A stretch of 25,844 nt of DNA from a virus: IMG/VR virus record IMGVR_UViG_3300048833_000285, positions 1 to 25,844 of that record; one strand, given 5' to 3'. The notes beneath the pieces were generated by a model that saw nothing but the letters and a program-made list of their open reading frames with translations, searched no databases and was not told the DNA's origin. A program made the translations under genes and the position numbers. Shown in pieces: positions 1-13,688 of this stretch; the first letter of the stretch is position 1, and each line of letters begins with the position of its first letter.

Positions 1-1231
1 TGTTCAGGCTCTTGGTGGTGATGTTCTGGCCGGTGAAGAACCAGCGATCGCGCATCACGCCCTGCTGCATGCGGCCGATGAGGCTCTCGATGGGCTTTGC
101 CTTCGCGTTGTATGGCTGTGCAGGGAAGTGCAGTTTCGATGCACGGCTGTAGAAGTCCTGGGACTCCCGCTTCTTGTGGCCTCCCTGGTTGTCATACAGC
201 CACTGCAGGGGGCGGTGACCGCTTGCCTTCAGGGCCATCTTCGCAGCGGTGAACTGGGCGCGGAAGTCCTCCGTGTGGCCAACGCTGTAGCCCAGTACTG
301 CCTCGCTGTACACGTCCATGATGAGGTATACCTGCAGCTTGGCCATCATGCCGCCCGCGCCCTGGTAGAAGTAGTTCAGCTTCGTACCATCGCTGCACCA
401 CAGTGCATCGCGGAAGGCAGGGCCACGCAGCTTCAGCGTGTGGGCGAACTCGTTCCGGTAGGCGGCTGCACCGTGGCGACCGATGTACCACAGCGGCTGG
501 ATATCGGACCGCATCAAGTGCTTGTAAATGGCCGTTTCACAAAGGCTTGGCCAGCCCTTGGCCTTGGCCTCTGCAGCGTAGCGTGCCGTCACCTTCGCGG
601 TGTCCGGCTTCGTGGGCTGTGCGTACTGGGCAACCAGCCAGGCGCTCTGGTCCATACCGATCTTGCGGCTGTTCTGGTTGCCCCACTTGGCGCTGATCAC
701 CGCAGTTGCACCGTTGGTGCGGTAGTCCCGCACCTTGGCCATGATGCGGCCATAGGCGTTCGGCAGGTCCACTTGCTCCTCCTGGATGTGGGCGATGATA
801 TCGGCCTGCCATTCGCGGGTGCTGCTGTAGCCCCATGCGGCCACCTGCTTGCGCGTCACCGTATTGAACAGGCGCAGGTAGGCACAGGCCTTGGCGTAGC
901 TGGCCACCGCGTCCTCGGGCAACGTGCTGCCATCGGGCAGCGTGTGGGTGCGAAGAACGGTGAGGTCGGCGGCGGCAGCTTGCAGGTGAGAAACCCATAA
1001 CACTCTGCGGGAGTCTGCCACCGCACGACCATGCACCTTGTCCACCACGGCCTTCACCGTGGGCTTCAGGTCATCATACTTCACCAGCACCTTGCGGCGG
1101 TCCTCTGGATCGTCAATGACGGTCCACCCTTTGGAGCCACGTTGCCGAGCCTTCTTGACGGTATCGTAAGCGATACCGGCAGTCAGTAGCTCTGACACCT
1201 CCAGGTAGGTTATGCCGCCAATGGTGCGCAT
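1..1231 (-). CDS. MuA-like DDE transposase (3' end beyond window)
   Basis: Catalyses DNA strand transfer for integration and replicative transposition. Reading leftward from ATG at 1231, the frame stays open to base 1 (410 codons), so the C-terminus is missing. Residues 1-70 (MRTIGGITYLEVSELL...) look like a DNA-binding region. The catalytic triad is visible: D281 in WCSDGTKL, D347 in WLYDNQGGHK and E382 in AKPIESLIGRM, a DD(34)E spacing within an integrase (RNase H) fold. The length and layout fit MuA, whose catalytic acids lie at 269, 336 and 392. The ATG is 2 bases past the stop of the XRE-like gene, so the two are co-transcribed from the early promoter near 2110-2141. A MuB-like ATPase would be expected further left. 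The triad makes the assignment strong; the fine family is inferred. Confidence 0.92.
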   Translation of the reverse strand, partial: MRTIGGITYLEVSELLTAGIAYDTVKKARQRGSKGWTVIDDPEDRRKVLVKYDDLKPTVKAVVDKVHGRAVADSRRVLWVSHLQAAAADLTVLRTHTLPDGSTLPEDAVASYAKACAYLRLFNTVTRKQVAAWGYSSTREWQADIIAHIQEEQVDLPNAYGRIMAKVRDYRTNGATAVISAKWGNQNSRKIGMDQSAWLVAQYAQPTKPDTAKVTARYAAEAKAKGWPSLCETAIYKHLMRSDIQPLWYIGRHGAAAYRNEFAHTLKLRGPAFRDALWCSDGTKLNYFYQGAGGMMAKLQVYLIMDVYSEAVLGYSVGHTEDFRAQFTAAKMALKASGHRPLQWLYDNQGGHKKRESQDFYSRASKLHFPAQPYNAKAKPIESLIGRMQQGVMRDRWFFTGQNITTKSLN

Positions 1232-1233
1232 GC

Positions 1234-1884
1234 TCAGGCCAGCTTGATAGCGAGTTGTGCGAGTTGGATACGGTGCAGGTACTCTGCAGCGCTTGCCTTG
1301 GCCTGGGCGGTCTCCTGGCGCTGCTGGGCCAGTTCCTTTTCCAAGGCCTCCACGCGATCGCCGAGCTTGTCAGCTACCCGGTCCGCCACGGTGCCGATGC
1401 CAGTGCCTGCGAGGGCTTTCACTGCGTTGTTCGCATCGGCCAGTTCCGTTAGGTCCTTGTGCAGGCTTCGCAACTCCGTGGCCATTGCACTGTTGCGCTC
1501 CTTGTAGCCCTCCAGCTCAGCCTGTGCAGCATCCAGGTCCTTGCCCTGCGCCACCAGCTTCTCTTGCAGGTCACGCAGTTCCTTCTGCAGGTGGGCATTG
1601 TCACTCTCGACTGCGGTGAGTCGGCTCTTGTCTGTAAGGCCAACCATCGCGTCTGGGCTAGTCTTCAACACAAGGCAGAGGCCCAATAGTGTTGTGAAGT
1701 CAGGGTAGGCAACCAAGCACTCCCAGTTACTGATGCTGTTGGCCTTGACGTTGAGGCGATCCGCCAACTCGCCCTGGCTCCAGCCGTACTGTTTGCGGAG
1801 CGCTCGTAAGGAAGCCGAAAAGGTTTTCTGCATGCCAGCAATGACATCGTTGGTCACTTGACCCTTGTTCTTCGGAGCACTCAT
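1234..1884 (-). CDS. XRE-family HTH regulator with long coiled coil
   Basis: 216 aa. Residues about 23-75 form a Cro/CI-type helix-turn-helix (LRALRKQYGWSQGELADRL, then VKANSISNWE). Residues about 85-212 are rich in Glu, Lys, Gln and Ala with heptad-like spacing, so an extended coiled coil for oligomerisation is likely. The gene overlaps the upstream small gene by 4 bases (ATGA at 1881-1884) and ends 2 bases before the transposase start, placing it in the early leftward operon. By position it could be a Ner-like negative regulator of early transcription or a factor acting with the transposase. The coiled coil is unusual for Ner, which is about 75 aa. DNA binding is well supported; the exact role is inference. 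Confidence 0.8.
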   Translation of the reverse strand: MSAPKNKGQVTNDVIAGMQKTFSASLRALRKQYGWSQGELADRLNVKANSISNWECLVAYPDFTTLLGLCLVLKTSPDAMVGLTDKSRLTAVESDNAHLQKELRDLQEKLVAQGKDLDAAQAELEGYKERNSAMATELRSLHKDLTELADANNAVKALAGTGIGTVADRVADKLGDRVEALEKELAQQRQETAQAKASAAEYLHRIQLAQLAIKLA

Positions 1885-2078
1885 TTGCGGCTGCGAGTTG
1901 GCGTGCGTAGAGAGAGCACCTCGTTGTACAGAGCAGTGATACCTGCGTTCTTGCGCGTGCCTGCGATCACCCTCTTCACATGATCGTAGCAGTAACCCTG
2001 CTTCGTCCGGCCCATCCGCCTGGCTTTGGCCATCTGCATGACCAGTCGGATATCCCCATATTCCTTGTTCGGTGTCAT
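1881..2078 (-). CDS. small HTH-like early protein
   Basis: 65 aa, strongly basic (many Arg and Lys). It is the first gene of the leftward early operon, starting about 30 bases downstream of the promoter-like boxes at 2110-2141. The segment from about residue 28 to 58 (YCYDHVKRVIAGTRKNAG, then ITALYNEVLSLR) resembles small phage regulators in which a short helix-turn-helix is followed by G-x-R-K-N and a helix. That suggests a Cro- or Ner-like protein, but the similarity is by eye only. Translational coupling with the next gene is likely because the stop and start overlap as ATGA. No membrane segment or signal peptide is seen. Function not established. Confidence 0.7.
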   Translation of the reverse strand: MTPNKEYGDIRLVMQMAKARRMGRTKQGYCYDHVKRVIAGTRKNAGITALYNEVLSLRTPTRSRK

Positions 2079-2098
2079 CGGTTGCTTACTTTGGTCCT

Positions 2099-2151
2099 GA
2101 AGTCGGGTACAAATATGGATCGAAGTAGATAGAAAGTCAAACGGAAGTAGA
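2099..2151. promoter_or_regulatory. candidate repressor operator repeats (GAAGT series)
   Basis: GAAGTAGA occurs at 2122-2129 and again at 2144-2151, 22 bases apart. A shorter copy, GAAGTCGG, begins at 2099, 23 bases before the first. Spacing of about two helical turns places all copies on one face of DNA. They lie between the divergent early gene (2078) and repressor gene (2173) and overlap the early promoter boxes. This is the expected position of phage operators. Binding itself is inference. Confidence 0.5.
2110..2141 (-). promoter_or_regulatory. early leftward promoter, Bacteroidota type
   Basis: On the minus strand TTTG (2141-2138) is followed after exactly 20 bases by CATATTTG (2117-2110). 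This matches the Bacteroidota consensus TTTG, N19-21, TAnnTTTG with one mismatch. Transcription would start near 2103, giving a leader of about 25 bases to the ATG at 2078. The GAAGTAGA repeats lie between and just upstream of the two boxes, so a repressor bound there would block this promoter. Confidence 0.6.
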
Positions 2152-2172
2152 CATTGAGTTTTCCACCGAGCG

Positions 2173-2610
2173 ATGTCAATTACTGAAAGACTGCAGACCT
2201 ATATCCAGGAATCTGGATTGAACGTCAACAAGGTGACGGTTCGCTGTGGCCTTCGGCCGGGCACGCTGAACAAGGCTTTGAAGTACGGCAAGAGCCTGAA
2301 CAGCGATACTGTTGAGGCCATCTTGAAGAACTACACTGACCTGAGCGCGGAGTGGCTGCTACTTGGCTATGGCCCCATGCGGAGGCGCTCAGCGCGGGTG
2401 ATGAATATGGAATCAGGTAGAGAGCTGAGTGCAGAGGAGTTGGCAAGGAATGAATCAAGCCTTGAGGATTGGAAGAAGAAAGTTGGTCCGCCAGACCTGC
2501 TACAGAAGCAGCTGCAGATACAACAGGCCATTGCCGAGCTACTTGACCAAGAGGACCTGGAAGTACTTCGGAAGCTGATTGACCACTACAAGCACGGCAG
2601 TCGGAGCTAG
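2173..2610 (+). CDS. CI-like phage repressor, HTH family
   Basis: 145 aa. Residues 1-60 form a helix-turn-helix typical of Bacteroidota phage repressors: SITERLQTYIQESGLNVNK, then LRPGTLNKALKYGKSLNSDT, followed by the conserved L-x-x-E-W-L-L-x-G-x-G-P-M motif (AEWLLLGYGPM). The C-terminal half is charged and helical, probably for dimerisation. No LexA/S24 peptidase domain is visible, so induction does not look like simple RecA-driven self-cleavage. The gene is transcribed away from the early operon, with 94 bases of control region between them, and is the natural lysogeny repressor. Downstream it converges on the end of the leftward late operon. The start is taken at the first ATG. Confidence 0.85.
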   Translation: MSITERLQTYIQESGLNVNKVTVRCGLRPGTLNKALKYGKSLNSDTVEAILKNYTDLSAEWLLLGYGPMRRRSARVMNMESGRELSAEELARNESSLEDWKKKVGPPDLLQKQLQIQQAIAELLDQEDLEVLRKLIDHYKHGSRS

Positions 2611-2884
2611 CAGAGCACTGCCCTACCTCCTCCGCTTCCGCCTGGTGGCGATGAAGAGGTGGATGGAGAGTAGCAGGGCGAAGAGAAGCTTGCGCATCTG
2701 TGTTGGGTTTGGCTGCCAAGGTCTCCAGGTGCCCACCCTCGAAAAAACGACAAGCCATTTTTCGTGGCCGCACTGAGCACCCGGCCAGGTCCACCAGTAC
2801 CAGGATCACCCCTAGGATGATGGTCACCACGATGCCGTCCTTGATGCGTTGCCAGGTGCGGCGGGTATAGGGGTCGGTGCTCAT
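2225..2884 (-). CDS. lipoprotein/membrane-like ORF, antisense to repressor (doubtful)
   Basis: Open frame of 219 codons starting with ATG at 2884, overlapping the stop of the upstream 78-aa gene as ATGA. That overlap suggests a real start at the end of the late operon. The N-terminus has positive charges (R8, R9, R12, K14), a hydrophobic run (IVVTIILGVILVLVDLAGC) and a lipobox-like LAGC. After about residue 50 the sequence becomes low-complexity, with many Ser, His and Cys. Its last 386 bases lie opposite the repressor gene, so the C-terminal part is probably meaningless. A shorter true product, made by a frameshift or an unrecognised stop, is possible. Could encode a small membrane protein or lipoprotein. 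Only the first 45 residues or so look protein-like. Confidence 0.35.
   Translation of the reverse strand: MSTDPYTRRTWQRIKDGIVVTIILGVILVLVDLAGCSVRPRKMACRFFEGGHLETLAAKPNTDAQASLRPATLHPPLHRHQAEAEEVGQCSASSDCRACSGQSASEVLPGPLGQVARQWPVVSAAASVAGLADQLSSSNPQGLIHSLPTPLHSALYLIPYSSPALSASAWGHSQVAATPRSGQCSSSRWPQQYRCSGSCRTSKPCSACPAEGHSEPSPC
2740..2764. terminator. weak A/T-rich inverted repeat between convergent genes
   Basis: CGAAAAA (2740-2746) and TTTTTCG (2758-2764) form a 7-bp stem with an 11-base loop, and either strand ends in a T- or A-run. It lies in the convergent zone after the repressor gene, inside the doubtful lipoprotein-like ORF. It could act as a bidirectional terminator, but the stem is weak. 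Confidence 0.25.
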
Positions 2885-3117
2885 TGGGCAAGGGTTGAAA
2901 GGTGGGCGTCAACAGCGGCCTGTACATCGGCGTCTGACCAGGTGCCATTCACGTAGGGCTGTGCAGGCAGGTCATAGTGGATGCGGATGTTAGCACCGCT
3001 CTCCAGGACAACCGAGGGTTGGAAGGTCTGCTCTGTCGGCCTGTCCAATGTGGCCACCACGGTCACCGTCGGATCGATGATCAGCACTCCAGGATGTGAG
3101 GGTACTTCGATGGTCAT
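2881..3117 (-). CDS. hypothetical 78-aa protein downstream of tail/DUF1566 gene
   Basis: The ATG at 3117 gives MTIEVPSHPGVLIIDPT..., a compact, mostly beta-strand-like sequence ending in a helix (SDADVQAAVDAHLSTLAQ). A longer upstream frame exists, but its first 54 residues are rich in Pro and Arg and overlap the preceding gene, so the internal ATG is preferred. It begins 10 bases after the stop of the gp37-like/DUF1566 gene and overlaps the next ORF by 4 bases, so it belongs to the leftward late operon. The position suggests a chaperone or accessory subunit for the DUF1566 protein, much as small fibre-assembly proteins follow fibre genes. That is only positional inference; I do not recognise the family. 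Confidence 0.6.
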   Translation of the reverse strand: MTIEVPSHPGVLIIDPTVTVVATLDRPTEQTFQPSVVLESGANIRIHYDLPAQPYVNGTWSDADVQAAVDAHLSTLAQ

Positions 3118-3127
3118 GGCTGAGAGG

Positions 3128-4777
3128 TTAGGGTGTCCAGCGGCGAACGCAGATGCCGAACTGGGAGGCAGAGGTCTTATTGGTCGCCGAGGCCGCACCC
3201 AGAGCATTGGTGATCCTAAGGGCCTGAGCGGTGGATGCCGGGCTCGTGGTACTGGACCACGGCAATATCGCAGAGGCAATAGCGAAAGGTCCGTAGTTCA
3301 GCACAGAGCCGGAATTGTACAGTGCAACGGAGTACCACACCCCTATAGGCGGAACCTTCCAATCGTTATGGCCATCGAACGTCAACGCTAATGCGGCATC
3401 GATAGCAGTGTTCCACACTGCCGTCAATGTTGGGTCGTTCGGCACGTACCACTGCAGCCTGGTGAGGTGGTCAATGAACGTGCGGTCTCCAGTGGTCCCG
3501 AAAGCAGCACCACTGGGATCGGTGAAACGATTCGTATTGCCGAACACATTGGGAATACCAAGGGTGGTCCAATTCACCAGGTACTGCTTCTGTGATGAGC
3601 TGCCAAACGATGGAACATGGTCGAACCATCCTGCTGCCCTGATGCTCTGCTCATCACCGCTCCTGTAGCTCACGGCCTGGCCGCTCCACAGCTCTGTGCC
3701 GAATGCGTAGATGATAGGGTCTCCAGCAGGGATCGGGTTGACCACGTTGATGGGTGTCCCGGCTGGTTGTGAGGCATACGGCACACCGTTCAGCGATACC
3801 GCCACATCAGGTGCGGCCGGTGCAGTGTCTTCAAAGAGCGTATCCAGGTCAATGCGGCCGTATTCTGTGCCAGCACTGTTGCGAAGCGATCGCGCTGGTA
3901 CGGCAATGTTCGGTGTCATCTCGGGACCGTAGTAGGCGGTCTCAAATGCCCGGCTGACGATGATGCCACCAGCAGCAAGCTCGTACAGGAACACCGAATA
4001 GGGCAGCCCCCATATGGTGCCGGGTGGCAACAGGGCAACAGGGATGCCAGGTGATAGGTCTGTTTGCAGCACCAGCACCGGATCGCTGCTCGCGAAGGTG
4101 CATTCCATCGGCACCTGAGCTGGTAGACGTATGCTTTCCCCATTGCTGTCGATGTGTACCACATCCGGAAGCACATGCTCTGCAGGTGCGGTCACATTCA
4201 CCACATAGCTGCTGTCACTGTTGCGCACCAGCACCACGCGGCCTGATGGCACCGGCATTGGCGGGTTGGCGTCGATCACCAGGGCGGGCACCGGCCGGGT
4301 CACGTAGGTGGCCGGGTCCATGTCCGTGCAGAGCAGGCTGCGGAACGCCACAGTGTCCACGCGGAACTTGCTGAAGCCGTGGTCCGGCTCCATGCCGATC
4401 AGGCCCACGGTACCGTAGCCCACGCCACGCATACCGATCAGGCGCTTGCCGATCTCCTTAACCTGGTCATAGGTGGCACGCGTGCTGGTGATGCGGCCAG
4501 CTGCGCGATCGCTGCCCAGGGGATCGTCCACCATGTCCCGGAGGATGTCCAGGTAGAACACGCCCTGCGCCTCGTAGTGCTTGCGGCCACGGGCCTCCCA
4601 CTTGGGTTCCTCGTAGCGCACCAGCACAGCAGGCAGCAGCAGGCCATCGATCATCTCCCCGCCCTCCATTCTCTCGGGCTGGTCATTGAACCAGTCGATG
4701 GTCCTGATCTTCAGGTCCGGCTTCGTGGGGTCAGTGAGCCGGTCGCGGATGGCGATATAGAGGTCGTCCAGTATCAT
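3128..4777 (-). CDS. gp37-like neck protein fused to DUF1566 (Lcl_C) domain
   Basis: 549 aa. Residues 1 to about 150 resemble the Mu gp37-type tail terminator or neck protein (ILDDLYIAIRDRL..., then LVRYEEPKWEARGRKHYEAQ, and FRVDTVAFRSLLC). Residues about 155-400 look beta-rich and low in Lys, like a phage decoration or fibre stalk. Residues about 410-549 match a DUF1566/Lcl_C fold: DHLTRLQWYVPND, a Trp/Ala helix, GHNDWKVPP, and the terminal FGICVRRW. DUF1566 belongs to the C-type-lectin-like group and often binds surfaces. The ATG overlaps the gpG-like gene stop (ATGA). A neck protein with a lectin-like tail is an unusual fusion, suggesting a surface-exposed adhesin at the head-tail junction. 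Domain calls are by eye. Confidence 0.75.
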   Translation of the reverse strand: MILDDLYIAIRDRLTDPTKPDLKIRTIDWFNDQPERMEGGEMIDGLLLPAVLVRYEEPKWEARGRKHYEAQGVFYLDILRDMVDDPLGSDRAAGRITSTRATYDQVKEIGKRLIGMRGVGYGTVGLIGMEPDHGFSKFRVDTVAFRSLLCTDMDPATYVTRPVPALVIDANPPMPVPSGRVVLVRNSDSSYVVNVTAPAEHVLPDVVHIDSNGESIRLPAQVPMECTFASSDPVLVLQTDLSPGIPVALLPPGTIWGLPYSVFLYELAAGGIIVSRAFETAYYGPEMTPNIAVPARSLRNSAGTEYGRIDLDTLFEDTAPAAPDVAVSLNGVPYASQPAGTPINVVNPIPAGDPIIYAFGTELWSGQAVSYRSGDEQSIRAAGWFDHVPSFGSSSQKQYLVNWTTLGIPNVFGNTNRFTDPSGAAFGTTGDRTFIDHLTRLQWYVPNDPTLTAVWNTAIDAALALTFDGHNDWKVPPIGVWYSVALYNSGSVLNYGPFAIASAILPWSSTTSPASTAQALRITNALGAASATNKTSASQFGICVRRWTP

Positions 4778-5277
4778 GCGCTTTTAGCTCCTTTGAACAC
4801 GTCTTCAAGGCCCGCCAATATCTCGGCACTGATCTCCTTAGCCAGCGGCTCGGTCGTGACCATGAACGGACGTGCGGGCATTGCTGCCGGTGTGTTGCTC
4901 TGCCTGCGGCGTATGAGGCCGCTGCGCAGGTTGGTGCTCCATGCTGCAGCCTGTCCCTTCAGGGCACCGCCCCGGTTATGGATCGCGGCATAGGGCGTGT
5001 TGTTGATCACCCTGGCATACTTGAAGTTGGGTGCGCTACGCAAGGCCCTGCGCAGGCGGCCGCTCTTCACCAGGATGGCGCGGCCCTTGTCCTTGCCGCT
5101 ACGGCGCGGCTCCCACTTCTCCAGGCTGCCACCGCTGCCGGTGAATGCACCCTGCCTGCGGAAGTTGGCGCGGAAGTGGTTCTCGGCCAACTTGCTCGCA
5201 ATGCGAGGCAGCTCCCGGCGATACGCACGGAAGCGGCTGGCCATGTCGCTGAAGGGGCTGGGGAACTGCTTGCTCAT
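4774..5277 (-). CDS. phage virion morphogenesis protein (Mu gpG-like)
   Basis: 167 aa, basic. Features of the Phage_tail_S / virion morphogenesis family (PF05069) include the N-terminal helix with Phe and Arg (FRANFRRQGAFTGS), W-E-P-R-R, a central ILVKSGRLRRALR, NNTPYAAIHNRGG, and the C-terminal PARPFMV followed by an amphipathic helix. In Mu, gpG works in head completion and tail attachment. It lies between a 59-aa gene (overlapping 4 bases) and the gp37-like gene (overlapping 4 bases), which matches the usual Mu-like order. The start ATG at 5277 is the first one and keeps the ATGA coupling. Length is close to the family norm. Confidence 0.88.
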   Translation of the reverse strand: MSKQFPSPFSDMASRFRAYRRELPRIASKLAENHFRANFRRQGAFTGSGGSLEKWEPRRSGKDKGRAILVKSGRLRRALRSAPNFKYARVINNTPYAAIHNRGGALKGQAAAWSTNLRSGLIRRRQSNTPAAMPARPFMVTTEPLAKEISAEILAGLEDVFKGAKSA

Positions 5278-5453
5278 GAGATCACATCCACATCGCCCTC
5301 CGTCCTAGGCAGGTAGTCCTCGCTCGCGATCAGTTCGGCCAGCTCACGGCTGTAGCCCATGATGAGCATCAGCGCTGTGACCAGCTCCTCGCCCGTCAGC
5401 TCGTCCCGCTCTAAGCGGGCACGCAGCTCCTCGATGTTCACTTTGTCCGCCAT
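5274..5453 (-). CDS. hypothetical 59-aa acidic protein in head operon
   Basis: Starting with ATG at 5453 this gives MADKVNIEELRARLERDELT..., a small acidic all-helical protein of 59 aa. Its start lies inside the last codons of the large portal fusion gene (16-base overlap, different frame), and its stop overlaps the gpG-like gene by 4 bases. A longer frame beginning at 5516 reads implausibly through the portal gene and is rejected. AAAAGG stands immediately before the ATG, a weak ribosome-binding signal, so expression is probably coupled to the upstream gene. No family recognised; conserved small genes at this point in Mu-like phages often encode head-completion helpers, but that is inference. 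Confidence 0.7.
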   Translation of the reverse strand: MADKVNIEELRARLERDELTGEELVTALMLIMGYSRELAELIASEDYLPRTEGDVDVIS

Positions 5454-8200
5454 CCTTTTGCAATGAAAAGTAAGTCGATCGCCTTGGCGATGGGGGCGAA
5501 GTCCTTCGCCGTCCATTGCGTAGGTATGCCACTGCTGCGTACCGTCTTCAGGTCCTTGAGCAGGGCCTCGTCACCACTGCGCACGGCCACGTACTGGCTG
5601 TATGCCCGCGCCCACTGTTCCTTGGGGTTGGCCAGGTAAGTGTAATACTTGCGCAGGCGTAGGGGCAGGCGCACGTCATTGCCTGCGGTGTCCTTTACGA
5701 TGCCGGTGTTCAGTACTTCGTTGATGCCCTTGATCACCTTGCTCTGGGCCATGGCCGCCTGCACCGCCTTCATCTCTGCACTGGCAATGCTGCTGGTGCC
5801 CCAGGACACACCCTGCCCCAGGCCAATGTGGTCAAGCCAGTGGCCCACCTCGTGTGCCAGCGTCAGGTGCTGGTGATCGCCGGTGAGGCGCACACCGATA
5901 TCCACTGCATTGTAGAAGGTGCTTCGGTAGAAGCCGAACGCCTTTGCCCTGGTAGGCTTCAGCGGGATCGCGCTCAGCACACCATCACCGTGTACGCTGT
6001 CGATCGCCTTCATGGTCCGCGTCAGCACAGTGCTCAGGGCCTTGTTGTCCGTGGTGAGCGAGCCGCTCACCGGCGTACCCTGGGCGCGGTTGGTGATGGC
6101 CGCGCCTTCATCACCCAGGACATCCTGCACCAGCTTCTCCACCTTGGCCTTCACGGCCTTCGGTGCCTTGCTACTGTAGGGGTGGTCCTTGGGGAACACC
6201 ACGCCATCCTTGCCCACGTTGCTGGCGAACATGCCTTTGCGGACAGGCTCCCAGTTGGCGGGCAGGCTGCGGCCACCACCCAGGCGAGCCACCTGCTCCA
6301 CATCGCACCTACAGCGCCAGCCGTTGGGTGGATAGTTCGTGTCCCAGAATGGGTGATCGATGTGTTCGGTGATGCCGTCATAGCCCTCGTGCTCATCGCG
6401 CACACGGTCATCGCCCACCGTGCTGTAGCGCAGGAAGGGGAAGAGGTCCCGGTCTGCCTGTAGGTCCGTCCAGCGCTGGGCCATCTGACCGCTGGCCACC
6501 GCGTGCTCATACTCGCTGCGCAGGTAGTTCTTGTTGTAGGTCTCGTCAATGGCCAGCACCCGCTTCTTGAAGTCAACGAAGGAGCGGAACTGGCCGTCCT
6601 CGTCCATCAGTTCAGCGCTCACGGCCTTGGCCACTTGGTAGCTCTTGAAGCCGGAGAACGTGAATACGTTGTCCCGCATGAAGGCCTGCAGCTGCTCGCT
6701 CTGTGGCCCTGCACCATCATCCAGGTCCATGCCGCCCATCACGCCCTTGAACAGCTGGTCCGCTGTCCACTGCATCAGCTTCGGGTCTACGTGGTCACCG
6801 GTGATGCGGCCGTCATGGAAGGCCCTGGCCAGTTCATCCATGATGCCATCGCTGTCCTCGTCCGGTCCACCAGCGGCCGTGAAGCCGTGGGTGTGCCCGT
6901 GGGCGCGGTACAGTCGATCGATGGCCTTCTGCATGCTGGCCGTGTCTGCTCGGTCTACTTCATCATCCGCCTCACCCTCCTCCTCCTTCTTTGGTGTGGC
7001 AGGGTCGGCCTTAGGTGCGTCCTCCTTGGCCTTGTCCAGCTTGATGCGCTCTGCAGCCGTGGGCATGGGGATGCCGTAGGTATCGTACCAGTAGCTCTCC
7101 GGCACGTCCACCTGTTCGGCCACCTTCTTGTCCACCTCAATGCGCTTCTCCAGGGGCAGGCCCACGGTCACATCAAAGGCAAAGCGGCCATCCTTCACAG
7201 GGTAGCCCAGGCGCATCAGGCGGTCCTTCAGCTCCCAGTTCAGCAGGAACTCGATGCGCTTCATGTCGGCCAATGCGATGTCGGCCTCCACGCCTTGGTG
7301 AACATCGCCCAGGCTGCGGGCACCGTTCTCCCCCTGCTCGGTGGTGAGCGTGTTGCCCAGGAAGATCTTGGAGAGCTCCGCGTTGCAGGCGCTCACCATG
7401 TCCTTGAAGATGGCGCTCTGGCCCTGGCTGCTGGCCGGGTTATGGAACTCCAGTGAGGTGCCATCCGGGATCACCGCATAGCCTGCACCGCCCATCTCTG
7501 CCAGGGCGGTCATCAGCTTGCTCCTGGTGCTCTCGTCCCAGGGGTTGTACTTACCCACCCTGAAGGGCTGGCCGAACAGCTCCACGAACTGTGCCCAGTC
7601 CCCGAAGGTGCCCCGCTTGTAGAGGATGTACGGCAGGGCGATCATCATCGCGCCCAGGTCACGGGGCCTGCCCACTTCGATCAGGTAGGGCGTGTACTTC
7701 GGGTCCTCCCGGTACATGATCCAGGGCGTGGTGGTATTGCTGGCGTCCTTGCTGATGTGGCCGAACTCGGGCACCACGTTCGCACGCGGTACCACCTCGC
7801 ACCGGCTGATGAGGCCCGCCTCCGGTATCAGCTCCAGTAGGGTGGGGCCATAGGGCACCACCTGCATGCTGCCGGTGATGAAGTCATAGAACCAGGGCGT
7901 GTCCAGGATGTCCTCGTGGATGCTCTTCATCAGCGCATCGCTGGCACCGTCCTGCACCCAGGTGATGCGCTTGTTCGCCACGTTGATGGTGCGCTTGTTC
8001 AGCACCGCGTGGAAGTGGCCGTCCAAGGCCAGGTTCTCATAGAGCTCATACAACGCCTTGCGCCGTGGGTTCTCAATGGACCGGGCGCTGTTGATGGCGG
8101 CCTGCACATCAGCGATGTCCTGGTTGCGCAGGGTGATGCGGGCCACGTTGACCTGGCCGATGACCGGTGATGACTTCCCTACCCGTGCGTTCTGGCTCAT
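5438..8200 (-). CDS. portal (DUF935) - MuF - zinc metallopeptidase fusion
   Basis: 920 aa, three modules. Residues 1 to about 395 are the portal protein, DUF935/Mu gp29-like (WVQDGASDALMKSIHEDIL, then NPWDESTRSKL and GQSAIFKDMVSACNAELSKI). An acidic/Lys linker (about 395-425) follows. Residues about 500-635 are a MuF/gp30 head-morphogenesis domain: RYSTVGDDRVRDEHEGYDG, then HPFWDTNYPPNGWRCRCDV ending near C632. The C-terminus (about 725-920) contains H783-E-V-G-H787-W-L-D, an HExxH zincin motif, with E861 in KEQWARAYSQY as a possible third ligand. In Mu, portal and MuF are separate genes. Here one translation product would enter procapsids at portal stoichiometry. The peptidase may mature head proteins or be carried into the host. 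Confidence 0.88.
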   Translation of the reverse strand: MSQNARVGKSSPVIGQVNVARITLRNQDIADVQAAINSARSIENPRRKALYELYENLALDGHFHAVLNKRTINVANKRITWVQDGASDALMKSIHEDILDTPWFYDFITGSMQVVPYGPTLLELIPEAGLISRCEVVPRANVVPEFGHISKDASNTTTPWIMYREDPKYTPYLIEVGRPRDLGAMMIALPYILYKRGTFGDWAQFVELFGQPFRVGKYNPWDESTRSKLMTALAEMGGAGYAVIPDGTSLEFHNPASSQGQSAIFKDMVSACNAELSKIFLGNTLTTEQGENGARSLGDVHQGVEADIALADMKRIEFLLNWELKDRLMRLGYPVKDGRFAFDVTVGLPLEKRIEVDKKVAEQVDVPESYWYDTYGIPMPTAAERIKLDKAKEDAPKADPATPKKEEEGEADDEVDRADTASMQKAIDRLYRAHGHTHGFTAAGGPDEDSDGIMDELARAFHDGRITGDHVDPKLMQWTADQLFKGVMGGMDLDDGAGPQSEQLQAFMRDNVFTFSGFKSYQVAKAVSAELMDEDGQFRSFVDFKKRVLAIDETYNKNYLRSEYEHAVASGQMAQRWTDLQADRDLFPFLRYSTVGDDRVRDEHEGYDGITEHIDHPFWDTNYPPNGWRCRCDVEQVARLGGGRSLPANWEPVRKGMFASNVGKDGVVFPKDHPYSSKAPKAVKAKVEKLVQDVLGDEGAAITNRAQGTPVSGSLTTDNKALSTVLTRTMKAIDSVHGDGVLSAIPLKPTRAKAFGFYRSTFYNAVDIGVRLTGDHQHLTLAHEVGHWLDHIGLGQGVSWGTSSIASAEMKAVQAAMAQSKVIKGINEVLNTGIVKDTAGNDVRLPLRLRKYYTYLANPKEQWARAYSQYVAVRSGDEALLKDLKTVRSSGIPTQWTAKDFAPIAKAIDLLFIAKGWRTK

Positions 8201-8275
8201 TCGTTTTCTTCGATTTGCGGGCTTATCTCCCCTTGGGTGGGGTTCCGATACCGCTCGCGGTGGGTTCGTGGCTAT

Positions 8276-8312
8276 TTAAGGCCGCTTAAGGGGTCTTTAA
8301 GGGGGTCCCTTA
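8276..8312. repeat. three TTAAG repeats and hairpin between gp36-like and portal genes
   Basis: TTAAG occurs at 8276-8280, 8286-8290 and 8297-8301, about 10-11 bases apart, in an otherwise gene-free gap (8201-8309). TAAGGG (8298-8303) and CCCTTA (8307-8312) form a perfect 6-bp hairpin that overlaps the stop codon of the gp36-like gene. The gap is the only sizeable one in a leftward operon where genes otherwise overlap, so it may hold a processing, attenuation or protein-binding site. Confidence 0.4.
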
Positions 8313-8750
8313 GTTCAGGTGATTGTTCCGGCGTGGGTTGCTCCCATACTGGACGTATTCCTTGGCATCGCCATCGGGGCTGGGTACCAGGGGCAGGTCG
8401 GGCGGGTTCACCTCTTGCTTCTGCACCCGGTGCAGCCACTTCTCGGCCGCCTCATAGTTGTACACCCGCATGTCCGGCACCTGGTTGGCGGGCAGGCGCT
8501 GGTACAGGTAGTACAGGCTGATGTCCACCGCATACTTCACCAGGATCGGGTTGCGGTCGCTGCCCGTTGCGTTGAAGATGGCCACCACGTCATAGCGGGC
8601 GTTGAGGTAGCCGCGCATCAGTTCAATGGCCGTGTTCTCGGCATCATCCAGGAGAGAGGTCAGCAGGCCGCTGTTGCCCCCGGCGATGCGCAGCAGGATA
8701 TCGCTATCGATGCTGGTCTGGTAGTCGGTCTCGGTGATGAAGGTGCTCAT
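8310..8750 (-). CDS. gp36-like head-tail connector (DUF1320)
   Basis: 146 aa. The sequence has the DUF1320 pattern: acidic N-terminus with DYQTSIDSDILLRIAGG, a helix with AENTAIELMRGYLNARYDV, then the signature NPILVKYAVDISLYYLYQRL and a helical AAEKWLHRVQKQEVNPPDLP. Family members (Mu gp36) sit at the head-tail junction. Here it overlaps the zinc-ribbon gene by 4 bases and is followed by a 109-base gap with TTAAG repeats before the portal gene. In Mu, gp36 lies downstream of the capsid gene, so its position between terminase and portal is rearranged. The ATG at 8750 is the natural start. Length is normal for the family. Confidence 0.88.
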   Translation of the reverse strand: MSTFITETDYQTSIDSDILLRIAGGNSGLLTSLLDDAENTAIELMRGYLNARYDVVAIFNATGSDRNPILVKYAVDISLYYLYQRLPANQVPDMRVYNYEAAEKWLHRVQKQEVNPPDLPLVPSPDGDAKEYVQYGSNPRRNNHLN

Positions 8751-9061
8751 TTGAAGGTGTGTTTACAGCGCATGCAGGACATGCCGCGAATGCTGGATAG
8801 GAACCGCACGGCCAGTTCCTCACTTCCGCATTGAGGACAGATGGCAACGATGGGTAGGTCTGGCGTTGTAGGCTTGTAGACGGCATAGCCATCGTTCCGC
8901 GAGTCCTCAATTACGAAGGCGTGGAAGTTGCCCCAGCCACGCAGGATAGCGTTGGTCATCTCTAGGTGGGCACCTGGCACCTCGCAGACCTTCCCTTCGC
9001 GCAAGGCATCGAGCAGCTCCTTGCGTGTGGATGGTCGGTAGTATGTCGCTACCTCACTCAT
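8747..9061 (-). CDS. zinc-ribbon protein between terminase and connector
   Basis: 104 aa. The C-terminus carries two CxxC knuckles, CPQC and CMRC, about 18 residues apart, forming a probable zinc ribbon. The N-terminal part (RPSTRKELLDALREGKVCEV, then a GWGNFHAFVIED-like stretch and GYAVYKPT) is a compact alpha/beta segment. It overlaps the large terminase by 4 bases and the gp36-like gene by 4 bases, so it is translated with the head genes. A packaging accessory role (DNA or terminase contact) is possible by position. Zinc ribbons of this kind also occur in unrelated proteins, so the function is unknown. Confidence 0.75.
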   Translation of the reverse strand: MSEVATYYRPSTRKELLDALREGKVCEVPGAHLEMTNAILRGWGNFHAFVIEDSRNDGYAVYKPTTPDLPIVAICPQCGSEELAVRFLSSIRGMSCMRCKHTFK

Positions 9062-10566
9062 AGCCGGTGCTTGCTTCTGTGGCGCTGCCCGATGCTGATG
9101 TCAGCACCATCCGTCACTGCGCTCTGCAGGTCATGGATGGCCCCCTCCAGGGCATCGGGTCCGTCCTTGTGTGTCTTCACGCCCGGCTGGAAGTTCAGGA
9201 GTTGCTCCTTCAGGCGCTTCATGTGGTGGTCCTCGTCCTCGGCTTCGTTGAAGTACACGTTGCCGCGTTCAAAGTGTCCGCTGATGGCCTCGATACGGGC
9301 GTCCTTCTCGGGCTTCTTGCGCTTGTCGCCTTGCAGGGGCAGGGGCACGCCGCGCTTCAGGGCCTCAGCGGCGAAGTCCTGGTAAAGCAGGTCCTGCAGG
9401 AATACCTCCTCCATCCGCAGGCGCACGGCACCGCCGCGCTGCTGCACATAGGTCTGCAGCTCGTAGCCCCAGCCCACCATCTCAATAACGCTGGCCACGC
9501 CCACGAATGCCTTGATGATGTGGTACTGGCCTTCGTGCAGGCCCACCAGTACCCACGCCTTGCTGTCCGAGGTAGAGGACTTCTTGAAGCCGGGGTCCAA
9601 GTAGCCCACCAGCGCCCGGTAGCTCTTCAGCGGGGGCAGCTTCTTGCTCACCAGCCATTCACGCTGGAAGGTCTTTCCCTCCTGGATCGGGTTATTGAAG
9701 TACTCCCGCTGGGCTACGTTGTAGCCCATCTTCGTGATCATGAACTGGCACTCCTCCAGGGTGTAGCGCTCCGGCCATGACGGCTGACCCTTATCATCCA
9801 GGATGTTCACCGTCATCTTGTGATCGGCGATCTCGTACACCCTGGCCAGTACCATGTCCTTGGCGAAGCGGTTGCCCACCATCACGAAGCGGCCCCGGCC
9901 GGTGATGTCCATGGCACCGAACAGCGCACCGCGTAGCCACTTCTCGGCCTCGTCCACCCGCTTGGGGTTGCGGCTCTGCTCGTCCTCATCGAAGTCATCC
10001 GCCACGATGTAGTCCGGGCGCACGGGTTCATTGCGGACACCGCGTGGGCTCTGCCCGCTGCCGATGGCCACGAAGAACCAACCCTGCTGGGTGATGAACC
10101 GACCTTGCTCCCAGTCACCGAGACCCTTGAAGGGACCGAAGTCCTGGATAAGGCGCTGGTTCGCCTCCAGCTCTGCCTGCAGGTCGCTGAGCAGGGTGAT
10201 GGCGTTGGTCTCGCTGTAGCTGGTGAGGAGCATGGTGCGCAGCTCACCGTTCACCGAAAGGAACAAGGGGTTCAGTATGGTGTGGATCACGCTCTTCGCG
10301 TGTGCCCGTGCGATCACCCACACGAACACCCCGCGCGGGTGGTCATACACTGCACGCTGTTGCTTCAGCTGGAACTTGCCGAAGGGTGCGGTACAGTAGT
10401 GCGGGAAGTAGTATGCACAGAACTCTTTGAAGTCCCCTTTAAGCCGGGCCACACGTTCCTCCTTCACACGCGGGCTCTCGTCCACGTCCACCGGGGTGGC
10501 ACGGCGAATGCCCAGGAGGTGGTCCTCCCAGGCGCGTAGTGCGTGGCGTTCTCCCGGCTTCAGCAT
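9058..10566 (-). CDS. terminase large subunit
   Basis: 502 aa; the ATPase/nuclease that packages phage DNA into procapsids through the portal. The ATPase part shows a Walker A-like loop ARAHAKS (K91, S92), where the usual Gly before Lys is Ala, and a Walker B YIVADD (residues 186-191) with nearby acidic residues. FVMVGNRF (227-234) is a coupling motif. The nuclease part shows YLDPGFKKSST (D324) and the C-terminal HKDGPDALEGAI (D468, D471), the usual RNase H-like acidic residues. Length is close to Mu gp28 and related terminases. The start overlaps the small-subunit stop as TGATG. A phage that packages by headful would cut host-flanked DNA as Mu does; that is inference. Confidence 0.95.
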   Translation of the reverse strand: MLKPGERHALRAWEDHLLGIRRATPVDVDESPRVKEERVARLKGDFKEFCAYYFPHYCTAPFGKFQLKQQRAVYDHPRGVFVWVIARAHAKSVIHTILNPLFLSVNGELRTMLLTSYSETNAITLLSDLQAELEANQRLIQDFGPFKGLGDWEQGRFITQQGWFFVAIGSGQSPRGVRNEPVRPDYIVADDFDEDEQSRNPKRVDEAEKWLRGALFGAMDITGRGRFVMVGNRFAKDMVLARVYEIADHKMTVNILDDKGQPSWPERYTLEECQFMITKMGYNVAQREYFNNPIQEGKTFQREWLVSKKLPPLKSYRALVGYLDPGFKKSSTSDSKAWVLVGLHEGQYHIIKAFVGVASVIEMVGWGYELQTYVQQRGGAVRLRMEEVFLQDLLYQDFAAEALKRGVPLPLQGDKRKKPEKDARIEAISGHFERGNVYFNEAEDEDHHMKRLKEQLLNFQPGVKTHKDGPDALEGAIHDLQSAVTDGADISIGQRHRSKHRL

Positions 10567-11018
10567 CAGACCAGCAGGCTCTTGATGTACTGGTCGCTGA
10601 GCTCACCGAAGCGCTTGGTGGTCTCCAGGTCGCTGGCCTCGCGCAGCCACTTGGTGAAGCGCATGAACACGTTCACCGTGGCACTGAGGCCCGTGTCCTG
10701 CTCCAGCTTGGCGATAGCGGCGCTCAGCTTGTTCTGGGTGTCGGCCTCCGTGGCCGTGGGGTAGCGGCGCTCGGGGTCCCGCTGTTCGATCGCGGTGTTC
10801 AGTGCGCTCAGCTGCTGGTAGAACCGGCTCAGTTCGCTCTCCTTGGTGGTGGTCACAGCGGCCCGCTGCTTGTCCCATCCATCGGCGTTCTTCCACAGGC
10901 TGATGGTCTTTTCGCTCACACCGATCAACGCTGCGATATCCTGCTGCAGCACGCCATTGCGGACGTAGAGCTGCTGGGCCTTGCTGCGCTTCTCGGCCAT
11001 CTTCCCCTTGCTTGCCAT
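10566..11018 (-). CDS. terminase small subunit-like (DUF1804/gp27-like)
   Basis: 150 aa from the ATG at 11018. An HTH is clear at the N-terminus: KRSKAQQLYVRNGVLQQDIA, then GVSEKTISLWKNADGWDKQRA, the pattern of DUF1804 and other small terminases that recognise DNA. The remainder is helical (ELSRFYQQLSALNTAIEQRD, ...FGELSDQYIKSLL), as expected for oligomerisation. A GTG six bases upstream (11024) would add two residues; ATG is preferred. It is the first gene of the leftward late operon, and ACACTTTTGTGT, containing a promoter-like CACTTTTG, stands directly before it. Its stop overlaps the large terminase start by 1 base. Confidence 0.85.
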   Translation of the reverse strand: MASKGKMAEKRSKAQQLYVRNGVLQQDIAALIGVSEKTISLWKNADGWDKQRAAVTTTKESELSRFYQQLSALNTAIEQRDPERRYPTATEADTQNKLSAAIAKLEQDTGLSATVNVFMRFTKWLREASDLETTKRFGELSDQYIKSLLV

Positions 11019-11066
11019 GGACACAAAAGTGTGATCCTACCCGCGCGTAAGGAATTCGGGTTTCCC

Positions 11067-11141
11067 CGTTACTGGCAAGCGTTGGGTAACGCGTCCCCAT
11101 TGGCCGGGTAACGGCCGGAAGCGATTTGATACGCGTTGCCC
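11067..11141. promoter_or_regulatory. four GGGTAACG-related motifs in divergent late region
   Basis: GGGTAACG occurs directly at 11084-11091 and 11106-11113, exactly 22 bases apart. Inverted relatives flank it: CGTTAC at 11067-11072 and CGTTGCCC at 11134-11141. The set sits in the 149 bases between the two divergent late operons, the position expected for a late-gene activator (compare Mu C or Mor). The activator itself is not identified in the window. Confidence 0.5.
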
Positions 11142-11156
11142 GTGCGTTGACTTTTG
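11125..11156 (+). promoter_or_regulatory. rightward late promoter, Bacteroidota type
   Basis: TTTG (11125-11128) and GACTTTTG (11149-11156) are separated by exactly 20 bases, matching TTTG, N19-21, TAnnTTTG except for the first base. The start site would be near 11162, only a few bases before the protease ATG at 11168, giving an almost leaderless mRNA. The opposite direction has CACTTTTG (minus strand, 11031-11024) at a similar position before the terminase gene but lacks a clear upstream TTTG, so that side may depend more on an activator. Confidence 0.5.
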
Positions 11157-11167
11157 CCCTCGTCAAG

Positions 11168-12337
11168 ATGCCACACACGCAGAAACATCAGTTCGTAGCG
11201 GCGGCCACGCGCCAGGGTACCGAGGTGGTCCTGGTGCTCAGCGGCTACATCTGGCCGGACAACAGCAACGCGTCCGCTGCCATCGCTGCGCAGTTGGCCA
11301 CGCTCCAGGAAGGTGACCAGCTCACCGTGATGGTGCGCAACCTGTACGGTGGTGACACGGACGAGGGGATGACCATCTACCACGACCTGCTGACCTACAA
11401 GCCGAAGGTGAAGGTGGACGGTGTGGTGGCCAGCATGGGCTTCGCCATCATGCTCGCCGGTACGGAGATCGAGATCAGCAGCCACAGCAAGGGCATGATG
11501 CACCGGCCCACCGGTGGGTGTATCGGTGACTTCGAGGACATGCGCGAACGGGCGGACCGGAACGAGCAGATCTACAACGAACTGGCCGACCTGATCGCCG
11601 CCCGCACCGGCATGACCGCTGACCTGGTGAAGGCCACCCTGATGCCCAAGGGCAAGGACGTATGGCTGACCCCCGCCAAGATGGTGGAGATGAAGCTGGC
11701 CGACCGGGTGACCACGGGCAGCCTGCTGCGCAGCACCGTGGCCATGAAGGAGCTGCGCAAGCTCACCGATGCAGATGACATCCTGGGCAAGTTCCAGGCA
11801 TGCCTGGATGAAGACGAACTGCCAACCTCACAAACCGAGGCACCCATGAACAAGGAACTGTTGAAGACGCTCGGCCTGCCCGAGTCCGCAACGCAAGAGC
11901 AGTATGACGCTGCTGTTGCCGAGCGCATCAAGAAGGGCGATGCCGCCAGTGTGCGTCTCGCCGATGTGGAACGCGACCAGGCGGCCGCCCAGGAGAAGGA
12001 GCTCGATGAGCTTCTGGACAACGGGGTGAAGAGCAACGTCCTGACCATTGCCCGGCGCGATGAGCTGAAGGCTCAGGCCAAGGGCAACGTGGCCGTGGTG
12101 CTGCCCATCGTGAAGAGCCTGGTGCAGGACATGCAGCCGCACCGCTCTGCCACTGAGCAGATCCGTGGCACCCCGGACAGCGCCACGGCCAAGAAGATGG
12201 CCGACCGTGCGGAGTGGGACTATAAGCAGTGGGCCGAAAAGGACCCCACTGGCCTGGCCCAGATGCAGCAGAAGGACAACGCAGCCTTCGAGGCGCTCAA
12301 GAAGGCTTACGTCGATAACCTGCGCAGCGCTCGGTAA
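11168..12337 (+). CDS. prohead protease (ClpP-like, S14) fused to scaffold
   Basis: 389 aa. Residues 15-185 are a ClpP/S14-type serine protease: VDGVVASMGFAIMLAG with nucleophile S89, KGMMHRPTGG with H112, and KGKDVWLTPAKMVEMKLAD with D164 corresponding to the ClpP Asp. Residues from about 227 are a charged helical scaffold (NKELLKTLGLPESATQEQYD, ending in KKAYVDNLRSAR) with no enzyme motifs. The protease cuts scaffold and head proteins during capsid maturation. An ATG at 11126 in the same frame would precede the likely transcription start, so 11168 is used. It is the first gene of the rightward late operon, and its stop overlaps the next start (TAATG). It matches the Mu gpI/gpZ arrangement. 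Confidence 0.9.
   Translation: MPHTQKHQFVAAATRQGTEVVLVLSGYIWPDNSNASAAIAAQLATLQEGDQLTVMVRNLYGGDTDEGMTIYHDLLTYKPKVKVDGVVASMGFAIMLAGTEIEISSHSKGMMHRPTGGCIGDFEDMRERADRNEQIYNELADLIAARTGMTADLVKATLMPKGKDVWLTPAKMVEMKLADRVTTGSLLRSTVAMKELRKLTDADDILGKFQACLDEDELPTSQTEAPMNKELLKTLGLPESATQEQYDAAVAERIKKGDAASVRLADVERDQAAAQEKELDELLDNGVKSNVLTIARRDELKAQAKGNVAVVLPIVKSLVQDMQPHRSATEQIRGTPDSATAKKMADRAEWDYKQWAEKDPTGLAQMQQKDNAAFEALKKAYVDNLRSAR
11846..12337 (+). CDS. nested scaffold protein, in-frame internal start
   Basis: An ATG at codon 227 of the protease gene is preceded by GAGG six bases upstream, in a phage whose other starts mostly lack such a signal. Starting here yields a 163-aa acidic/helical protein (MNKELLKTLGLPESATQEQY...) containing only the scaffold. 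Mu gpZ inside gpI and lambda Nu3 inside C are made exactly this way, giving many scaffold copies per protease. Domain logic and the upstream GAGG support it; expression is inference. Confidence 0.6.
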   Translation: MNKELLKTLGLPESATQEQYDAAVAERIKKGDAASVRLADVERDQAAAQEKELDELLDNGVKSNVLTIARRDELKAQAKGNVAVVLPIVKSLVQDMQPHRSATEQIRGTPDSATAKKMADRAEWDYKQWAEKDPTGLAQMQQKDNAAFEALKKAYVDNLRSAR

Positions 12338-12552
12338 TGATGCACCACCCTGGTGATGCCCTCGTCTCCGTGCTTGCAGGGTCGGCAACGGCCCTGCTGG
12401 CACACGCTGCCAACCTCGTAGAGGCGGCCAGCTTGGGAGGTGAGCTGTTGAGCACGGTGCTCTACGGCTTCATAGGGGGCGCAGCCGGGTACATGGGCCG
12501 CTTGCTGATCGATCACTTGAAGAACCGAAAACGAACCAACCCGAAACAATGA
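12337..12552 (+). CDS. small two-segment membrane protein between scaffold and capsid
   Basis: 71 aa. Two hydrophobic stretches, about residues 8-28 (ALVSVLAGSATALLAHAANL) and 38-58 (LLSTVLYGFIGGAAGYMGRL), are separated by a short loop. A basic tail, HLKNRKRTNPKQ, follows. The size and plan resemble a class II holin, but the gene lies within the head module: its start overlaps the scaffold stop (TAATG) and its stop overlaps the capsid start (ATGA). The lysis cassette is elsewhere, near 14443-15925, with its own holin candidate. A membrane role in prohead assembly is another possibility. I do not recognise the family. Confidence 0.75.
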   Translation: MMHHPGDALVSVLAGSATALLAHAANLVEAASLGGELLSTVLYGFIGGAAGYMGRLLIDHLKNRKRTNPKQ

Positions 12553-13688
12553 AGACGCCGAAGATGAAGACGCTCCTGACCGTACTGGTGCTCGCAGTGA
12601 TGAGCCTGGCTGGCGGTACTGTGATGGCCAGCGTGGCCACCTCGGGGCCTGACCCCTTGACCACCAACTACGACCTCGCCCTGGCAGTGAGCACCGGTGC
12701 GGTGTTCAGCCTCAGCGTGGCGAAGCGCTACGTGAAGTCCCCCTACTTCCAACGCCCTGCCAACGTGGTGGGTGCGGATATCACCGTGGAGATCTGGGTG
12801 GACATGATCGTGGAGTACCTGCGCAAGAACAACGATGTCCTGGGCAGGGCCTTCCGTGAGGATGATCGGGTACTGGGCGGCAAGGTGGTGCACATCCCCC
12901 AGGCCGGTGCCAACCTTGGCGGTGAACGTAGCCGTACCACGCTGCCTGCGACCGCTTCAAAGCGTACCGATACGGACGTGACCTACACCCTGATCGAGTA
13001 CACCACGAACCCTGCGATCCTGCAGAACACGGAACAGGCCGAACTGAGCTACGATAAGATGGTGAGCCTGATGGCCGACCAGCTGGCCTGGCTCGATGAG
13101 AACATCACGGCGGACCTGTTGCAGATCTGGGCCGCTGCGAGCGCTGCACAGATCGTGCGCACCACCGGTGCCGACAGTACGCTGAACTTGTCCGTGGGTG
13201 CCACCGGTACCCGCAAGATCCTCACCGTTGCCGACTTCAAGAAGGCCATGGTGCTGATGAACAAGAACGATGTGCCCAAGGCCAACCGCATCGCTCTCCT
13301 GGACAGCGACATGTACGGTGAGCTGTTGGATGACCCCATCCTGCAGAACCGCGATGTGGCCAAGGAGGCCGACTACGTGAACGGTGTGGTGGCCCGTCTG
13401 TTCGGGTTCGACATCCTGGAGCGCAGCGAGAACACGGTGTTCACCAACGCTGGCACCCCGGTCAAGAAGGCCGTGGGCGCTGCCACCGCTACCAGTGACA
13501 ACAAGAGCTCCCTGTTCTTCGAGCGGATGAGCGTTGCCGCTGCCCTGGGCCAGAAGGAGTTCTTCGAGAGCAAGCAGGACCCGCTGTACTTCGGTGACGT
13601 GTACAGTGCTCTGATGCGTGCTGGCGGTCGCCAGCGCCGTGCCGATGGCAAGGGCATCGTGAGCATCGTGCAGACGGTGGGTGCCTAA
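12549..13688 (+). CDS. major capsid protein with N-terminal signal-like extension
   Basis: 379 aa. From about residue 77 the sequence follows Bacteroidota phage capsid proteins: ITVEIWVDMIVEYLRKNNDV, KVVHIPQAGANLGGERSRTT, then SKRTDTDVTYTLIEYTTNPA, and the C-terminal half with SDMYGELLDDPILQNRDVAK and LFGFDILERSENTVF. The first 33 residues are unexpected: three Lys (K2, K5, K7), a hydrophobic core LLTVLVLAVMSLAGGTVM and a VMA/S signal-peptidase-like site. The extension may be removed by the prohead protease or may anchor proheads to the membrane. An A-rich leader precedes the ATG at 12549; M6 (12564) is an alternative start. It overlaps the small membrane gene by 4 bases. A large hairpin follows the stop. 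Confidence 0.9.
   Translation: MKTPKMKTLLTVLVLAVMSLAGGTVMASVATSGPDPLTTNYDLALAVSTGAVFSLSVAKRYVKSPYFQRPANVVGADITVEIWVDMIVEYLRKNNDVLGRAFREDDRVLGGKVVHIPQAGANLGGERSRTTLPATASKRTDTDVTYTLIEYTTNPAILQNTEQAELSYDKMVSLMADQLAWLDENITADLLQIWAAASAAQIVRTTGADSTLNLSVGATGTRKILTVADFKKAMVLMNKNDVPKANRIALLDSDMYGELLDDPILQNRDVAKEADYVNGVVARLFGFDILERSENTVFTNAGTPVKKAVGAATATSDNKSSLFFERMSVAAALGQKEFFESKQDPLYFGDVYSALMRAGGRQRRADGKGIVSIVQTVGA

Follow-up and report, generated by a model that had tools for sequence, protein, structure and literature searches.

What is a metallopeptidase-like domain doing at the end of a phage portal protein? The question is raised by a 25.8 kb IMG/VR virus record (hereafter the window, meaning the whole stretch of DNA analysed), in which one polyprotein joins a portal, a MuF domain and a zincin-like C-terminus. 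An earlier note on this DNA had read the peptidase either as a second head maturation protease or as cargo ejected into the host. The features that bear on this choice are listed here; L183 is a relative described below.

5438..8200, minus: portal-MuF-zincin polyprotein, an ORF of 920 aa with an ATG start (coordinates take in the stop codon)
7070..8050, minus: Mu-type portal (DUF935), residues 51-377; Pfam Portal_Mu PF06074, E 2e-69
6299..6571, minus: MuF domain, residues 544-634, with WRCRC at its end; Pfam Phage_Mu_F PF04233, E 1e-12
6089..6295, minus: region between MuF and zincin, residues 636-704; low pLDDT and a drop in identity to L183
6065..6079, minus: GTPVS motif, residues 708-712, where the zincin cassette begins; conserved in alignments of 24 and 66 rows
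5441..6088, minus: zincin-like putative effector domain, residues about 705-920; AlphaFold2 model, both alignments and Foldseek
5840..5854, minus: HEVGH, putative zinc-binding and catalytic motif, residues 783-787; conservation of HExxH, helix 777-794 of the model
5618..5620, minus: E861, presumed third zinc ligand, within E-x-W-A-R-A-Y; near-invariant, helix 859-875 of the model
5274..5453, minus: acidic small ORF of 59 aa, candidate immunity or inhibitor gene; overlaps the end of the polyprotein gene
4774..5277, minus: gpG-like virion morphogenesis protein (Phage_tail_S), the next gene; PF05069, E 2e-11; overlaps the small ORF
11126-12337, plus: ClpP-like protease; Pfam

Architecture of the polyprotein

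The portal part of the polyprotein matches the whole PF06074 profile (positions 1-336 of 336), and in phmmer searches it also matches the PDB portal chains 9khx and 8rka. The WRCRC motif occupies residues 628-632, and this motif, HEVGH and E861 all lie where the earlier note had placed them. Behind the MuF domain, residues 636-704 comprise the tail of a Bacteroidota MuF region (NVGKDGVVFPKDHPY) followed by a variable linker. Portal-MuF homology to other phages ends near residue 677 and zincin homology begins near residues 705-720, indicating that the junction lies in between. PHROG 35074 (890 aa) covers residues 13-678, and PHROG 4529, annotated as 'minor head protein and DNA pilot', matches residues 750-911 (E 3e-7); neither Pfam nor NCBIfam holds a family that covers the C-terminus. 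Several in-frame ATG and GTG codons between residues 423 and 560 are candidate internal starts from which a MuF-zincin protein could be made separately, none with clear support. In Bacteroidota, Shine-Dalgarno sites are often absent.

The fusion recurs in two relatives. Contig L002 overlaps the window over 7.3 kb at 99.7% identity, its reading frame uninterrupted from the middle of the portal across the zincin, and L183, found among 395 sampled genomes of a single Bacteroidota class and located in a Bacteroidia genome assembly, encodes an ORF of 929 aa with the same three domains, 48% identical over polyprotein residues 1-919. Given this recurrence and the two Pfam matches, the claim that a single frame joins a DUF935 portal, a MuF domain and a zincin stands, and the fusion is evidently no artefact. 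A sample of 396 genomes of the phylum, scanned at a strict E-value and with no positive control, gave no additional match. Judged by these relatives, the hosts of the phage are probably Bacteroidota. The window and L183 are 61% identical in the portal, 49% in MuF, 10% in the linker (residues 676-704) and 32% in the zincin. Despite the gap between portal and zincin, we do not claim that the zincin was swapped between them, as the tree test was unresolved and did not reject one clade for both (p-AU 0.77).

The terminase and portal genes (5438-11024, minus) diverge from the ClpP-like protease and major capsid genes (11126-13688, plus), a layout also seen in Porphyromonas and Winogradskyella phages. 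An HTH regulator lies at 1234-1884, and together with the position of L183 inside a Bacteroidia assembly this suggests that the phage may be temperate or prophage-derived. The tail region encodes a protein (3128-4777, minus) whose C-terminal Lcl_C domain (PF07603, score at the cut-off) is a possible adhesin-like display domain.

The C-terminal domain as a divergent zincin

No locus came up when genomes were scanned with the window sequence alone; scans with alignments of the zincin found 29 loci in IMG/VR and 63 in GTDB. Where the neighbouring region of these relatives is recognisable it is usually MuF, and they belong to phages and prophages of many phyla; some are stand-alone, shortened or larger proteins. 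One MuF-zincin relative, L009 (4078-6615), carries an intein in its MuF domain (residues about 283-594, PF14890, E 3e-9) just before CRCW.

As examination of the relatives showed, HExxH is present in 82 of the 85 distinct sequences, the exceptions being two fragments (L099 and L100) and the degenerate L102. This conservation is not a product of selection bias, because HExxH was left out of the search patterns used to collect the relatives. The partner glutamate equivalent to E861 is near-invariant in the 66-row alignment, with Asp in L070, and the invariant positions include H737, H783, E784, H787, A864, R865, Y867 and Q869, at a mean column identity of 19%. The AlphaFold2 model has a pLDDT of 84 overall and at least 92 across most of the zincin domain, with low confidence at residues 636-676 and 696-700; the model sets HExxH on one helix and E861 on a later one. 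In BFVD, Foldseek matches MuF proteins from uncultured phages (best E 1e-18). Its matches in the PDB are weak, none with E <0.001, and zincins are prominent at the top (M61, MATCAP, lethal factor, snapalysin); a profile search of the PDB points to ADAMTS-5 (E 0.004), mirolysin, ulilysin and IrrE. From the conserved putative ligands, the confident model and the weak but zincin-dominated structure matches, we conclude, in agreement with the earlier assignment, that the C-terminal domain is a predicted zincin of divergent sequence.

Exchange of cassettes on portal-MuF carriers

Portal and MuF share one ORF in 42 of the 80 IMG/VR loci found by portal-MuF alignment, or 44 such fusions in total with the Porphyromonas phages BK068090 and MT835523. 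The scanned C-termini carry PBECR2 in 35/42 cases and CdiA_C in 2/42, and a relative with split portal and MuF carries a Gln_amidase toxin domain. A zincin was found neither on any fusion recovered by the portal-MuF alignment nor on the split Gln_amidase relative. Hymenobacter encodes a Mu-type portal and a MuF-zincin protein in adjacent separate genes, and the zincin is joined to many other MuF types as well. Among the loci surveyed, the portal-MuF fusion is thus common and a zincin on such a fusion appears to be rare.

In the window, an N-terminal MuF domain (PF04233, residues 544-634) precedes a variable domain, and related portal-MuF carriers bear PBECR2, CdiA_C, Gln_amidase or zincin at that place; both features are those of the MuF class. 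Because related fusions carry PBECR2- and CdiA-type nucleases there, the zincin C-terminus is predicted to be an exchangeable MuF effector cassette rather than a conserved maturation protease.

A small acidic protein encoded at the gene end

The earlier note had missed a small downstream gene that co-occurs with the zincin. The 59-aa ORF of the window starts within the end of the polyprotein gene, and among distinct loci with enough downstream sequence, an ORF of 40-110 aa starting -30 to +15 nt from the gene end accompanies 72 of 81 zincin genes, as against 11 of 76 MuF genes without zincin (Fisher p 2e-22, relatedness ignored). The most frequent start offsets are 0 and -9 nt. Other long ORFs in the zincin loci have such an ORF at their end in 31 of 178 cases. 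The products are acidic, with a median pI of 4.35 compared with 11.2 for background ORFs.

Profiles built from one half of the small ORFs score the other half above background; one background match turned out to be the second of two tandem copies in L085 (5603-5797 and about 5819-6028), which lie behind one zincin gene, as in polyimmunity arrays. A profile made without the window and L183 recovers both (E 6e-4 and 2e-3), whereas the best of 2,053 background ORFs reaches E 3. The small ORFs beside zincin genes are, by these profiles, one homologous family with the loose consensus 'Eeav..Lm...GmsreeAe..va...Ge..GDvv', the proteins being short and divergent enough that some assignments are unsure. 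In Akkermansia phages a small ORF occupies a similar place, with a profile score at background (E 3.5). UBA is matched by 3 of 58 members (best E 2e-4), and the family seems to resemble UBA domains. The product of the window small ORF has no match in Pfam, PHROGs or PADLOC, and it is modelled as three helices (pLDDT 76) with no significant fold match. Profile matches of the family to designed TPR and alpha-repeat proteins in the PDB were discarded as matches of helical composition.

The degenerate relative L102 (3669-5207), a copy in an Akkermansia genome, has lost HExxH and retains E-F-A-R-A-Y, and there is no small ORF at its gene end. The joint loss of HExxH and small ORF is a single case and suggestive only. 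The small acidic ORF is the best candidate for an immunity protein of the zincin.

What the peptidase may do

The polyprotein is probably a MuF-type phage-borne effector, with the portal as carrier, the zincin as cargo and the small ORF as its likely inhibitor. The portal and MuF domains would put the chain into the virion head. After ejection or release, the zincin would act as a protease in the entered bacterium and cut a protein of the host, of a defence system or of a competitor. The small acidic protein, translated from the overlapping start, would probably keep the peptidase inactive in the producing cell and perhaps in the lysogen too. The observations beneath this reading are the domain order, the conserved putative metal ligands, the exchange of cassettes, and the specific co-occurrence and homology of the small ORFs. 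From them we infer that the zincin is a protease, that it is packaged, freed from the portal and ejected, and that the small protein inhibits it. Ejection into the host, one of the two options raised earlier, is thus retained as the supported one.

Delivery would be hard without cleavage, since the zincin is covalently bound to a portal that stays in the virion. The step by which the zincin would leave the portal is the weakest in the proposed mechanism, and the same problem arises for the commoner portal-MuF-PBECR2 proteins, which makes it a general question about the portal-MuF-effector architecture. The earlier expectation of about 12 peptidase copies at the portal ring would require that the chain stays uncut and is not translated from an internal start. 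A bolder version of the effector reading, speculative and rather doubtful, takes the ring itself as the carrier: about 12 uncut chains would form a protease dodecamer at the DNA exit, each inhibited by a dedicated UBA-like protein until ejection, and zincin and inhibitor would be one effector-immunity family across many bacterial phyla.

The peptidase may instead be an injected non-lethal effector that cleaves a host defence or regulatory protein, aiding infection or the choice between lysis and lysogeny, with the small ORF as chaperone or timing inhibitor. Such a role was proposed by Jamet et al. for MuF peptidases of low toxicity (PMC5576092), enzymes fused to portal or MuF are widely taken as early host-takeover effectors (PMC5512222), and the genomic evidence for delivery is identical to that for the toxin-like reading; the tight coupling of the small ORF to the zincin is more typical of toxin-immunity pairs, yet compatible, and this alternative seems somewhat unlikely while still deserving weight. 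That the zincin instead cuts its own chain or its neighbours, freeing the MuF and effector parts from the portal, would supply the release step that a portal-tethered effector needs; it agrees with the GTPVS motif ahead of the domain and with the proposal of Iyer et al. that zincin-like peptidases process phage polyvalent proteins (PMC5512222). It is nevertheless improbable, as the zincin is the last domain of the chain and nothing follows it that could be freed, the nuclease-bearing sister fusions have no such peptidase, and in most relatives the zincin follows a MuF domain unfused to a portal.

Head maturation, the other option of the earlier note, in which the zincin would be a second prohead protease beside the ClpP-like one, takes its appeal from a position in the head gene cluster and the tether to the portal. 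The zincin is not conserved among phages with the same head module: the closest architectural relatives bear nucleases in its place, indicating that such heads do not need the peptidase to mature, and the dedicated ClpP-like protease named in the earlier note is present. The zincin also diverges faster than the portal between the window and L183, and this reading has become very improbable. The least probable reading of all is a structural domain or a decayed enzyme without catalysis: the degenerate L102 and the weak PDB fold matches would fit it, whereas HExxH in nearly all relatives and a near-invariant glutamate at so low a column identity argue for catalysis.

Relation to described systems

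Novelty had been overstated in the earlier note, as both MuF metallopeptidase toxins (PMC5576092) and portal-MuF-effector fusions (PMC5512222) were published before. Of the set of MuF polymorphic toxins that Jamet et al. 2017 (PMC5576092) described in temperate phages, about 20% have a metallopeptidase domain. The window shares with them MuF followed by a variable, toxin-like C-terminal domain, a portal/terminase neighbourhood and a downstream small ORF, and differs in that a single chain carries its MuF behind a whole Mu-type portal. Iyer et al. 2017 (PMC5512222) described portal/MuF-PBECR and portal/MuF-2H fusions. A portal-MuF-PBECR2 protein occurs in Porphyromonas gingivalis phages such as BK068090, which share with the window the N-terminal architecture, the protein size (852 vs 920 aa) and the surrounding gene order; they differ in carrying a predicted RNase cassette without an overlapping small ORF of the family seen in the window.

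Closest in the arrangement of toxin and immunity genes are Bxa, a MuF toxin of a Bacteroides prophage that is neutralised by adjacent small ORFs, and Apk2 (PMC11699363). Both are prophage MuF proteins with a C-terminal toxin next to small immunity ORFs, an arrangement resembling the one proposed for the window. The two toxins act as an ADP-ribosyltransferase and an alarmone synthetase, their MuF is unfused to the portal, and their toxicity and immunity were assayed, whereas both are predicted for the window. The 'head morphogenesis' proteins of the Akkermansia phages Chambord and Chantilly end in a homologous zincin (33% identity, HExxH and E-F-A-R-A-Y); these are separate proteins of 557 aa, and in Chantilly the portal gene lies elsewhere. 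Anthrax-lethal-factor-like and other zincins are known as polymorphic toxins (PMC3482391). The main texts of open-access papers yielded no description of a zincin on a portal-MuF chain, nor of the UBA-like partner family. The locus extends the effectors known from portal-fused MuF proteins to a predicted protease and provides a testable pair of genes, a conserved zincin and a conserved small partner beside it, present in phages of many phyla; for all portal-fused effectors it sharpens the question of how a portal-attached domain reaches the next cell.

The zincin family also bears on LPD1 (PF18796, large polyvalent protein-associated domain 1), a domain to which the authors who described it assigned no function (PMC5512222). 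Its 78-position model aligns with the C-terminal half of the zincin family, including the segment of the third ligand, and leaves out the HExxH half. The window polyprotein has no LPD1 match at the Pfam gathering score; only relatives reach the threshold, L074 with 27.5 bits (cut-off 27) and L034 with E 2.5e-20. The latter (857-4597) is a 1,246-aa protein of a Leptospira weilii plasmid that is matched by the zincin profile as well, which indicates that LPD1 probably corresponds to the second half of a zincin and gives this unexplained domain a possible function, as half of a peptidase.
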